From a virus, in IMG/VR virus record IMGVR_UViG_3300030106_001334, positions 1 to 28,564 of that record: a stretch of 28,564 bases of DNA; one strand, 5' to 3'. The translations under genes were made by a program, and so were the position numbers. Below are positions 10,901 to 20,673 of this stretch, one piece after another. Every line of letters begins with the position of its first letter. The first letter of the stretch is position 1. The notes under the pieces were generated by a model. It had not been told where the DNA came from, did no database searches, and saw nothing but the letters and a program-made list of their open reading frames with translations.

Positions 10901-11122
10901 CACAGCAGCGGAGTAACAAAAGCTCTTGTAACAAGTGTTGGTATTAGTTCTATCAAAGTAACAGGTGCTTGTGAGGGTGGTGACTTATTAGAAAGTAATG
11001 GAGATGGTACAGCTAAAGTACAATCCGATGACATCATAAGAAGTAAAACAATCGGTAAAGTAACGATTGGCAACAGCACGACAAGTGTAAAGCTTGTATC
11101 ATGCGTATTATATTGTGGATAA
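7964..11122 (+). CDS. Tail fibre with T7 gp17-like anchor
   Basis: The 1052-residue product begins with a T7-type fibre anchor (residues about 1-150: RRVQYTGNGSAGPFSFSF, later QQSSQKVDRAL and LPEKDSRKGKILGF), which attaches fibres to the tail tube. The rest is a long beta-rich shaft of Gly/Thr/Ser/Asp repeats, including DLGHTTTRWKNAYI, GGDLEIYHDGAGSYIDD and GNVTGNVSGNAETVT, all familiar from marine phage fibres. The C-terminal 130 residues (TGACEGGDLLESNGDG and following) look like a separate tip or trimerisation domain. It has its own gap of 34 bases upstream with a GTGGGG-type ribosome site. Base use is less A-rich than in the internal virion genes, consistent with modular exchange of the receptor-binding gene. 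Receptor is unknown. Confidence 0.88.
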   Translation: MTDIVDVARRVQYTGNGSAGPFSFSFQVNATTEIKVFVGTTQKTITTHYTVSLTSSGAGSVSFTSGNFPTSSETITIVSSVSLARSSVYTTGGPLTASALEADFDTNIMILQQSSQKVDRALAAPEFDATTIDMTLPEKDSRKGKILGFNATSGNPEVVGENATVTTIFNAIGDNTLTLTGTITYGSLSDGTITITAFVDEDDMSSNSATLVPTQQSVKAYVDSQVTAQDLDATTDSGTIAIDLDSETLTIAGGEGIDTSATGNTITIAGEEASTSNKGVASFSSTFFSVSSGAVSLVAAQTGITSLLATDIKIGEDDQTKIDFETADEIHFYAANAHQILLSDGVFRPQTDSDVDLGHTTTRWKNAYIDTITTTGNVSIGGDLDVTGSFDMSDANITNIGSIALDTITNDGSDITLDSSGTIILDADGSGQVEFKDNGVSYGSVNSSGGTGMNLVVSQADENFEIYGTDGSTIIKALEISMANDGAALFKSSVTATSFVGALTGNVTGNVSGNAETVTITANNSANETVYPVFVDGATGTQGLESDTGLSYNPSTGLLSTDSLITGASTFTGNVSHNDNVKAIFGTGGDLEIYHDGAGSYIDDTGTGRLYLRGSDRVQIQKYNSDSGLIEDGITFLEDGAVKIYHDNAKKLETTSSGVTVTGGLTAATGAFTDSVDINIADGDADNAYALTIRNNETTDSRSYGVQIKAGSTSTDKVLDLKQHDGTSLHQFNGDGTISFGNNVLVGSTSTLSSAKLLVKGTKSGTGGNAGQLVVLDDTAYSTTDNGGAIQFAGNFYDGGQVVFATVQGVKSNNTDANNAGDLIFTTKANGGDQTTKMRINDAGAVLIGRDSVGNTGNGHSIRGGDSAIFSRDATGESVQIGRNANDGQLIQFRDNGTEVGDIRVDGTTVSLTGFAGNHESSGISESTEVGTVVSTIDELDTRKLADGSVVDHKNHAKIKVSDSVGDKRVYGVLNKFVEHSSGVTKALVTSVGISSIKVTGACEGGDLLESNGDGTAKVQSDDIIRSKTIGKVTIGNSTTSVKLVSCVLYCG

Positions 11123-18694: not shown

Positions 18695-19029
18695 GGTTTA
18701 ACAAGTTCAATGCCCACAAAACCGAGGTCGATGGCATTTTATTTGACAGTAAGAAAGAAGCCAAAAGATATAGTGAATTAAAGTATTTGGAGAAAGCAGG
18801 TCAGATACACAACCTGGAGCTTCAACCCAAGTTTGAATGTATAGTGAAGGAGAAGAAGATATGTACCTACAGAGCAGATTTCAGATATTTCGACAAGCAC
18901 CAGAAGGGAGTGTTGGGTCAGGAAGGAACCATGGTAGTCGAGGACGTAAAGGGCTTCAAAACACCAACCTACAGGTTGAAAAAGAAGCTGGTCGAGGCAT
19001 TGTTCCAGGTGAAGATAACCGAATTATGA
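18691..19029 (+). CDS. DUF1064 nuclease-like protein
   Basis: The 112-residue product matches the DUF1064 pattern (PF06356): NKFNAHKTEVDGILFDSKKE at the N-terminus, then ELKYLEKAGQIHNLELQPKF, YRADFRYFD, VVEDVKGFKTPTYRLKKKL. Family members have a PD-(D/E)xK/Vsr-like nuclease fold; here FDSKKEA (Glu24 region), ADF and EDVKG carry the likely active-site acids and Lys. Phage members usually sit among replication genes and may resolve or nick branched DNA, but the reaction is not firmly established. GAAGGTG precedes the start. It overlaps the next gene by four bases. Confidence 0.85.
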   Translation: MRFNKFNAHKTEVDGILFDSKKEAKRYSELKYLEKAGQIHNLELQPKFECIVKEKKICTYRADFRYFDKHQKGVLGQEGTMVVEDVKGFKTPTYRLKKKLVEALFQVKITEL

Positions 19030-19322
19030 TTACAACAATTGATTTAGCCTTGGTTTTTCAAGAAATAACAAAAATTTCATTTACGGTTATGTATGAGGAT
19101 TGTCGAAAGGACAACGAGTTCATTCACCTGCGTTTCATGTGGACAGGCGTTTGTCGTTTCTTCAAGCGATCCTATCCTCAAATCGCTAAAACAATTAGAA
19201 AGGATCATTCGACTTGCGTGTTTTATTACAAGCGTCATCTAATGATGATGGACAAATACGACTGGTACTCAGAAAGCTACCTTCTTTTGTTGGATGACAC
19301 ACTGGATCGTTTTGGGGTTTAA
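19026..19322 (+). CDS. Stand-alone DnaA domain IV-like protein
   Basis: I start at ATG 19026 (ATGA overlap with the nuclease stop), giving 98 residues. Residues about 9-68 align with the C-terminal DNA-binding domain of bacterial DnaA: LHLRFMWTG-like HLRFMWTGVCRFFKRSY, then PQIAKTIRKDHSTCVFYYKRH. DHST at 60-63 matches the DnaA signature DHTT, and Arg36 fits the base-contacting Arg of DnaA. The AAA+ and N-terminal domains are absent, so it could bind DnaA boxes but not assemble an ATP-dependent filament. The next gene carries two perfect DnaA boxes, the likely targets. Whether it recruits or displaces host DnaA is not known. Confidence 0.75.
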   Translation: MITTIDLALVFQEITKISFTVMYEDCRKDNEFIHLRFMWTGVCRFFKRSYPQIAKTIRKDHSTCVFYYKRHLMMMDKYDWYSESYLLLLDDTLDRFGV

Positions 19323-20300
19323 ATGTTGGATATGCCACCAGATAAAACGTCCAAGCAAGTCTTAAGGGAAATAAACAAGGCTCGACAAGACATCCTTCGG
19401 CCACCCAAAGAACACAACACCTGTGAAACCGGCAAGGAACAGGATCAAGCATTCTCCGCATTCTTCAAAGCACCGAGCAGAGCCTTACAGGATAAACGAC
19501 TAGCGACAAGACCAAGGACTTTTATTATTCTCTGTGCCTTGTGTCAGTTTATTGGACCAACAGGATACTGTTATCCCAAGCAAGCACGGATCGCACGACA
19601 GCTAGGCATGAGCCAGCAAGGTGTCAGTAAACACATAAGATTGCTGGTTGATTATGGGTATGTCGATAAGGTTCGAAATGAATATAAGTTTCGTAAAAAC
19701 GGACATACATCAGCCACCTGGCGCATACTTTTTGATCCATCAATTGACCAAGAACAGGGGTACAAAAATACCCTCGAACACGATGAACGCTTTCAAGAGC
19801 AAGAAGCCGAGGAAACCATGAAAAAAGTAAATGAAAACAATAAGAAGAGTAAGTTATCCACAGAGTTATCCACAGGTAGGCAAAAACAGGCAAAAAAGAA
19901 GGAAAAAGAGGGTACAAAAACAACCCAATTAGGTTGTATGACCCCACAACCCAATGAGGTTGTACAAAAACTGACCAATAGAACTAATATATTTAATATT
20001 ATAGGAAAAGATATTTGTAAGCTTTATGCTCATTTGTTGGACGACATCGTTGGAGGTCGAGGTGAGTGGCGGTGGGACGAGAGGCAAGAGCAAATAGCTC
20101 AAGGGTTCTTAGACAAGGGAATGACAGTCGATAGCTTCAAGGCATCAGCAAAGAGAACTCTGTACAGTTGCAAGAAGGAGAGCAGACGACCACCCTACTC
20201 GCTTGCATTCTTTGAACAGGCCATGCCACAAACAAAGAAACCCACCTTGTCAGCTAGTGATGTCATCAAAAGAGTAACCAACAAGAGTAAAATAAAATGA
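19323..20300 (+). CDS. Replication initiator with N-terminal winged helix and internal origin
   Basis: The 325-residue protein has an N-terminal winged helix at about 63-137 (TFIILCALCQFIGPTGYCYP, ARIARQLGMSQQGVSKHIRL, DYGYVDKVRNEY), a polar Lys/Glu/Thr-rich linker (about 150-215) and a helical C-terminal domain (about 228-310, KLYAHLLDDIVGG, SAKRTLYSCKKES). This is the layout of lambda O-like and plasmid-type initiators, where the N-terminus binds iterons and the C-terminus recruits the helicase. The linker is encoded by the DnaA boxes and iterons listed separately. No phage helicase gene is in the window, so host DnaB is the probable partner. It starts directly after the DnaA-like gene's stop; the next gene overlaps it by four bases. 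Confidence 0.75.
   Translation: MLDMPPDKTSKQVLREINKARQDILRPPKEHNTCETGKEQDQAFSAFFKAPSRALQDKRLATRPRTFIILCALCQFIGPTGYCYPKQARIARQLGMSQQGVSKHIRLLVDYGYVDKVRNEYKFRKNGHTSATWRILFDPSIDQEQGYKNTLEHDERFQEQEAEETMKKVNENNKKSKLSTELSTGRQKQAKKKEKEGTKTTQLGCMTPQPNEVVQKLTNRTNIFNIIGKDICKLYAHLLDDIVGGRGEWRWDERQEQIAQGFLDKGMTVDSFKASAKRTLYSCKKESRRPPYSLAFFEQAMPQTKKPTLSASDVIKRVTNKSKIK
19854..19862 (+). promoter_or_regulatory. DnaA box 1 (TTATCCACA)
   Basis: A perfect match to the bacterial DnaA box consensus TTATNCACA. It encodes Leu-Ser-Thr of the initiator linker. The second box follows with a 12-base repeat length, so both face nearly the same side of the helix. Confidence 0.75.
19866..19874 (+). promoter_or_regulatory. 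DnaA box 2 (TTATCCACA)
   Basis: A second perfect consensus DnaA box in the same orientation, 12 bases after the first. It encodes a second Leu-Ser-Thr, so the duplication is visible in the protein as LSTELSTG. Confidence 0.75.
19878..19897 (+). repeat. Tandem 10-base repeat AGGCAAAAA(C/A)
   Basis: AGGCAAAAAC at 19878-19887 is followed at once by AGGCAAAAAA at 19888-19897. The ten-base period places the A-tracts on one face of the helix, which would bend the DNA. It lies between the DnaA boxes and the palindromic iterons. Confidence 0.6.
19921..19964. repeat. Two palindromic iterons
   Basis: CAACCCAATTAGGTTGTA (19921-19938) and CAACCCAATGAGGTTGTA (19947-19964) differ by one base and are 26 bases apart. 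Each is a palindrome of the form CAACC-N6-GGTTG. They are probably the binding sites for the winged-helix domain of the initiator. Confidence 0.7.
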
Positions 20301-20578
20301 CTGTTCATAACTTAGAGGTTCGTTTACATTGTGTACATCTGCTAAATTACGTACAAAAAATAATGCAATCTTTTTACACGATGTCCACGACCCCACCAAG
20401 AAAAAACGACCTTACGCCCCCCCCCGTTGCTAAGTATAGTAGGGGTATCCCACAAAACTTTTTCCAAGATTTCGTCTGTTGCCTTTGCGGTAAGGACGCT
20501 ACTTTATCTCATGGTCAGACTGATAGTTTGTACTGCACAGAACATCATCCTGATTGGCAGAAAATCAAAGAAAGTTAG
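20297..20578 (+). CDS. Small zinc-finger-like protein with C9 tract
   Basis: The 93-residue frame starts with an ATGA overlap with the initiator; a later ATG at 20381 is an alternative start without a clear ribosome site. Residues 61-84 contain CLCGKD-type CxxC (Cys61, Cys64) and, 16 residues on, CTEH (Cys80, His83), a C2-CH zinc-binding arrangement. The run of nine C at 20417-20425 encodes Thr-Pro-Pro-Pro; a one-base slip here would remove the zinc motif. The function is unknown; a small regulator or a replication accessory is plausible from its position. Confidence 0.6.
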   Translation: MTVHNLEVRLHCVHLLNYVQKIMQSFYTMSTTPPRKNDLTPPPVAKYSRGIPQNFFQDFVCCLCGKDATLSHGQTDSLYCTEHHPDWQKIKES

Positions 20579-20584
20579 AAACGC

Positions 20585-20600
20585 TGTAAACGATGTAAAC
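20585..20600 (+). repeat. GTAAACG direct repeat
   Basis: GTAAACG occurs at 20585-20591 and 20594-20600, nine bases apart, in the short gap after the zinc-finger gene, followed by TATCAAA twice (about 20606-20619). It may be a regulator site for the following genes. No promoter can be assigned with confidence. Confidence 0.3.
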
Positions 20601-20673
20601 GCAACTATCAAACGTATCAAATAAAGGTATTTTTTAACAAATGTCGCATAAAAAACAACAAAAAGGAGCTAAA

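Follow-up and report, generated by a model that had tools for sequence, protein, structure and literature searches.

Here, we describe a probable origin of theta-type replication that lies within the coding sequence of a phage's own initiator, at positions 19854-20026 of a 28,564-base IMG/VR record (the whole of which is called the window below). Judging from sequence comparison, we put the probability of this reading at roughly 85%. The module combines DnaA boxes, palindromic dyads that are read in different frames of the gene, and an AT-rich tract, and it recurs with variations across a family of initiators in which the DNA-reading helix and the dyads change together. A first-pass annotation had proposed an origin at this place. 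The origin-like module survives the comparative test, and we infer from it the activity as an origin.

The record carries podovirus-type genes, namely those for a head-tail connector, a T7-type capsid assembly protein, terminase, RecT, a YqaJ-type nuclease and SSB. The 325-residue initiator matches HTH_36 in Pfam (E 1e-11) and several replication initiation or O-like families among the PHROGs (E 2e-10 to 3.5e-8). Its domain layout was taken from an AlphaFold model (Table 1), in which the recognition helix spans residues 98-111, a segment that is variable among family members. The small ORF upstream of the initiator (18837-19322) matches the DnaA DNA-binding domain (PF08299) only below threshold (E 0.006), probably by chance. 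Just 3′ of the gene are an inverted repeat, AGGTTCGTTTACATTGTGTACA / TGTAAACGATGTAAACGCAACT, and a tandem AAACGATGT (20316-20337, 20579-20606). Elsewhere, L112-L118 are stand-alone frames of about 111 residues that resemble the C-terminal domain of the initiator only, as if the gene had been split.

Table 1. Coordinates of the initiator gene, its domains and the origin-like elements within it.
Feature	Position	Strand	Remarks
Initiator gene, 325 aa	19323..20300	+	HTH_36 winged helix, disordered linker, helical C-terminal domain
Winged-helix DNA-binding domain, residues 52-135	19476..19727	+	model secondary structure; winged-helix fold matches
Recognition helix start SQQGVSKH, residues 97-104	19611..19634	+	class covaries with dyads
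DnaA box 1, TTATCCACA	19854..19862	+	exact match; exact boxes enriched in family
DnaA box 2, TTATCCACA	19866..19874	+	exact match
Disordered-linker coding stretch, residues 185-220	19875..19982	+	pLDDT <50; contains dyads
Dyad (iteron) 1, ACAACCCAATTAGGTTGT	19920..19937	.	read TTQLGC; kept in L003, L004, L005
Dyad (iteron) 2, ACAACCCAATGAGGTTGT	19946..19963	.	other frame, read QPNEVV
C-terminal helical domain, residues 217-300	19971..20222	+	presumed replisome contact
AT-rich tract	~19977-20026	.	putative unwinding element; directly 3′ of dyads

The boxes, dyads, decamer and AT-rich run that had been claimed for this gene were all found in place, inside ORF 19323-20300. The two DnaA boxes are 12 bp apart, start to start, and form a perfect 12-bp tandem, AGTTATCCACAG. 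The DnaA signal lies in this tandem pair and not in single boxes, since boxes with at most one mismatch are near chance in the window (13 found versus 9.2 expected) and a further exact TTATCCACA occurs at 11114-11122 on the minus strand. A tandem AGGCAAAAAC follows at 19878-19896. The dyads are 18-bp elements of the form ACAAC-N8-GTTGT, spaced 26 bp start to start, within ACAACCCAATTAGGTTGTA at 19920-19938 and ACAACCCAATGAGGTTGTA at 19946-19964. With up to three mismatches allowed, the window should contain this pattern 0.02 times by chance, and it is found at 19920 and 19946 only. When codons were shuffled synonymously with the protein held fixed (20,000 shuffles), two ACAAC-N5-8-GTTGT dyads arose in 1.6% of cases and two DnaA boxes in 0.015%. 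The 60 nt past the last dyad are 78% AT, versus 57% for the gene, and the AT-richest 50-nt segment of the gene begins 13 nt past that dyad. GC skew, which had been suggested as a check, follows gene strand in the window and nine relatives; it carries no information on the origin site and speaks neither for nor against 19854-20026.

Five close relatives were fetched for a first comparison. The closest two, L003 (99%) and L004 (81%), retain both boxes and dyads. In L005 (70%), the DnaA boxes and the AGGCAAAAA decamer are gone while both dyads are retained at the same 26-bp spacing, and in L006 and L007 (37%) the dyads have altered cores at unchanged spacing and are accompanied by one reversed DnaA box. 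The first-pass annotation had named related phages with the same protein but lacking the repeats as evidence that would count against an origin; what was found is that even L005-L007 carry dyads, and that dyad type tracks helix type (n=74; see below). Where dyad codons encode the same residue as in L004 and L005, silent changes number 0 of 12, as compared with 29-32% elsewhere. The comparison upholds the idea that the linker is written by this DNA. The tandem AGGCAAAAA decamer was rejected as an origin element: it was found only in the window and its 99% relative and does not belong to the conserved structure. One of the 18 contigs scanned for dyads (see below), which shares 99% identity across the initiator, carries a direct terminal repeat of 99 bases and therefore looks complete at 31,275 bases; it contains two dyads only.

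The family was surveyed from two sides. A DNA-only scan of all viral contigs, seeking ACAAC-N8-GTTGT twice at a distance of 2-32 bases, returned 63 stretches, about half of them inside initiator homologues detectable by blastp. The dyad spacers in these homologues range from 7 to 31, and in several a DnaA box sits between one dyad and the next. A second class of ACAAC-N8-GTTGT pairs (L013, L017, L027, L035, L037, L039, L052, L053, L063, L065, L070) has a constant 11-nt spacer, with the first dyad often followed by ATTT; it occurs mostly on large contigs, outside initiator homologues. The protein-only surveys used profiles free of DNA information to fetch further initiator loci. Clustering at 90% identity gave a first set of 52 clusters, of which 43 have ACAAC dyads in the gene and 3 have ATAAC dyads, the others being 5 with different helix motifs and 1 C-terminal fragment. 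A scan for the ATAAC pattern by itself gave 74 matches, most of which are expected by chance. Distant kin aside, the family has been seen only in uncultured viral contigs and one contig from a metagenome-assembled genome (MAG).

Across the family, genes carry 1-4 dyads (2 in the window) at spacings of 23-94 (26 in the window), the arms covary in a base-paired manner, and in 18 contigs the 18-bp ACAAC-N8-GTTGT dyads lie inside the initiator gene only. Among genes with a QQ helix, 53/54 have two or more dyads, versus 1.2% of synonymous shuffles, and in 40/54 the dyads fall in two or more reading frames. An AT-rich tract follows the dyads in 64/64 genes; the 60 nt past the last dyad average 71% AT, compared with 50% for the gene. 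Exact DnaA boxes occur in 34/77 genes against 0.6 expected, with one or two per box-bearing gene, and in genes with a scored dyad all 39 boxes lie, in either orientation, within 100 nt of a dyad. The proposal needs correcting as to the DnaA boxes, which are strongly enriched but accessory, missing from about half of the family as well as from L005.

The reading part of the protein and its site change together in relatives, which points to the initiator binding its own gene. In non-redundant relatives with the helix motif xQQx, ACAAC/GTTGT dyads are present in 57/57, versus 0/18 for other helices. By helix class, QQ goes with ACAAC (57/57), QP with ATAAC (3/3), RQ-TK with GCAAC (4/4), RQ-TN with GGACAC (9/9) and KQ with TCAAC (1/1), without one off-diagonal case in the 74 scorable non-redundant initiators (a 75th gene, L206, was not scorable, and L119, from the genome scan, was left out). 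The ACAAC class is a true prediction because it was taken from the window ahead of the survey; the other classes were drawn up afterwards from the data themselves, some with n=1-4, and GGACAC is a permissive pattern. When repeated dyads are sought without bias, ACAAC ranks top in 56/57 QQ genes and ATAAC in 3/3 QP genes, and GGACA/GACAC or GCAAC comes out in the other classes wherever exact dyads repeat; 5/9 RQ-TN genes and 2/4 RQ-TK genes are without repeated exact dyads. On a phylogeny built with the helix and linker columns left out, helix and dyad traits undergo 9 changes each. The best tree offers 6 contrast pairs in all; independent contrasts on strongly supported branches are few, and both of them (2 of 2) are concordant. 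The sister initiators L221 and L236, 77.5% identical, differ in the helix and in both dyads, and their DnaA boxes have opposite orientation. Common rules of recognition would also pair Gln with A and Arg with G, as is seen at the first dyad base. These comparisons support the suggestion that the winged helix is the reader of the iterons.

Two cases depart from this pattern or bear on it from a distance. A scan of genome contigs found one contig only, the Flavobacteriaceae MAG contig L119, and it is the sole exception found, a QP helix paired with ACAAC dyads. The front part of L119 is nearer the QP type and the rest is 95.5% identical to the QQ type, so that it is likely a recombinant or an assembly chimera. 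The nearest cultured relative found is Methylophilales phage MEP301, with a portal 58% identical, whose gp55 is a short winged-helix protein with PHROG replication-initiation matches. The MEP301 genome has no dyads and no exact DnaA boxes, which counts against the origin reading, though its helix also differs (TAPSVS instead of SQQ).

How might such an origin fire? We suggest that an initiator dimer would grip each 18-bp dyad through the recognition helices of its N-terminal winged-helix domains, with residues 98-99 (QQ in the window phage) among those making contact. Several dimers may then strain and finally open the adjoining AT-rich tract, and host DnaA on the two TTATCCACA boxes could assist the opening. 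Recruitment of host DnaB helicase would fall to the C-terminal helical domain, acting alone or together with DnaA. We propose the host enzyme because genes for a helicase, polymerase A or a loader of the DnaC/IstB type were not found in nine relatives: the three families searched (DnaB, DNA polymerase A, IstB/DnaC) gave no match there, while controls did, so these phages probably use the host replisome. Helicase loading is the weakest step of the mechanism. There is no loader match among the downstream ORFs of the window that would correspond to a P-type loader adjoining the initiator, and Foldseek returned no significant match for the C-terminal domain. We considered the C-terminal domain as a lambda-P-like loader and set the idea aside; 9oa1_Z was the top fold match (Z 4.8), a weak lead to lambda P, but it was tied, and comparing profiles gave no support, whether the partner was lambda P by itself or eight aligned P-like sequences. 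As a separate observation, the O-annotated protein of Pseudomonas phage vB_PaeP_FBPa19 (L380) contains a lambda-P-like segment and is apparently an O-P fusion.

Initiators often repress their own genes, and it is conceivable that the dyads serve autoregulation only, as a roadblock or repressor site, with replication beginning elsewhere. The covariation of helix and dyad would fit this equally, since it shows a reader and not a function. We nonetheless consider it unlikely: the dyads lie mid-gene in the linker and not at a promoter; the AT-rich tract follows them in every one of the 64 genes, and DnaA boxes cluster with them; and the layout matches the proven lambda origin (PMC3349717, PMC7466680). 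The DnaA boxes might instead titrate host DnaA, slowing host replication, with no tie to a phage origin. That boxes are gained and lost among close relatives (two in L004, none in L005) and point either way would suit such a role, but an initiator gene has only one or two exact boxes, few for titration, and every box in the scored genes is at most 100 nt from a dyad, which makes this explanation very improbable.

Two further explanations concern the RNA and the protein. Covariation of the dyad arms as base pairs is what one would expect of mRNA hairpins controlling translation or stability, yet RNA pairing does not predict that the arm sequence should track the residues of the recognition helix, nor does it predict DnaA boxes and an AT tract; we regard hairpins as a most improbable account. 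Similarly, because the repeats fall in coding sequence, selection might act on the linker peptides (TTxxGC, QPxEVV) with the DNA repeat as a by-product. This is scarcely credible when copies within one gene lie in different frames and encode different peptides, when the dyad codons show no silent changes, and when peptides and dyads differ together between L221 and L236. An origin within the initiator gene remains our preferred reading. A bolder version, which we hold tentatively and at somewhat less than even odds, is that of a self-reading replicon in a widespread family of uncultured phages, in which helix and iterons switch together among at least 5 types under a partial residue-base code (Gln-A, Arg-G at the first dyad base), so that the origins of co-infecting phages could be blind to one another.

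Comparison of initiator-origin specificities is usually hard, as reader and site are known as a matched pair in few cases. In this family, both are present in each gene and there are dozens of natural variants, with pairs such as L221/L236, so that initiator-origin co-evolution becomes directly testable. The family also shows the extent to which a DNA function can write a protein's disordered linker, and it offers a simple route to spotting origins in uncultured phages. We found no description of this initiator family in the open-access literature searched.

The lambda origin already has this design, with 18-bp iterons and an AT tract placed within the gene for its initiator, and similar arrangements are known in SPP1 and several plasmids. 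In lambda and likewise in Stx phages, four 18-bp iterons in the middle of gene O precede an AT-rich tract (PMC3349717, PMC7466680); by the measure used here, the 40 nt past the last lambda iteron are 78% AT, versus 52% for the gene. The window family shares the iterons inside the initiator gene, as imperfect palindromes of about 18 bp in several copies, and the AT-rich tract directly downstream. It differs in iteron sequence, which is unrelated, in having 1-4 dyads at variable spacing, in carrying exact DnaA boxes in about half of its members (lambda O has none), and in that a P-like loader gene was not found beside the window initiator. The O-like PHROG families match the window initiator through the winged helix only, the family profile gave a negative result against lambda O, and Phage_rep_O is absent from the Pfam matches listed for the initiator. 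The principle may perhaps extend to a distant family: in Bradyrhizobium phage ppBdUSDA122-1 (L372, 1189-2340), the linker of another HTH replication-type gene contains two TGCCC-N6-GGGCA dyads at a distance of 20 bp.

Among plasmids, P1, F and RK2-type iteron origins resemble the window in placing DnaA boxes beside iterons and an AT-rich tract, but their iterons are direct repeats spaced regularly at about two helical turns, whereas the window family has dyads at spacings of 23-94. Plasmid relatives of the initiator were sought and came down to distant HTH matches; RepC (PF03428) matches at E 0.0059, below the gathering score. Matches to the winged-helix fold include 4pt7 ('Structure of initiator') and 5kbj ('Structure of Rep-DNA complex'), but the fit to RepA_N-type plasmid initiators, at Z of about 7, is no better than that to unrelated winged helices. 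In repABC plasmids, oriV lies within the repC coding sequence and its AT-rich tract is essential; repC is without iterons and DnaA boxes (PMC3155836), whereas the window initiator gene has both. The origins of pAD1, pSK41 and pSX267 lie inside rep and have recognisable iterons (PMC3155836). In SPP1, oriL likewise lies inside gene 38, which encodes the origin-binding protein, and it too has repeats and an AT-rich unwinding element, but unlike the window, SPP1 has direct repeats, a second origin, and a loader and helicase of its own (PMC6316719). Against these systems, three things are new: the family itself, the DnaA boxes that some of its members add, and the natural series in which single genes contain matched specificities of helix and iteron.
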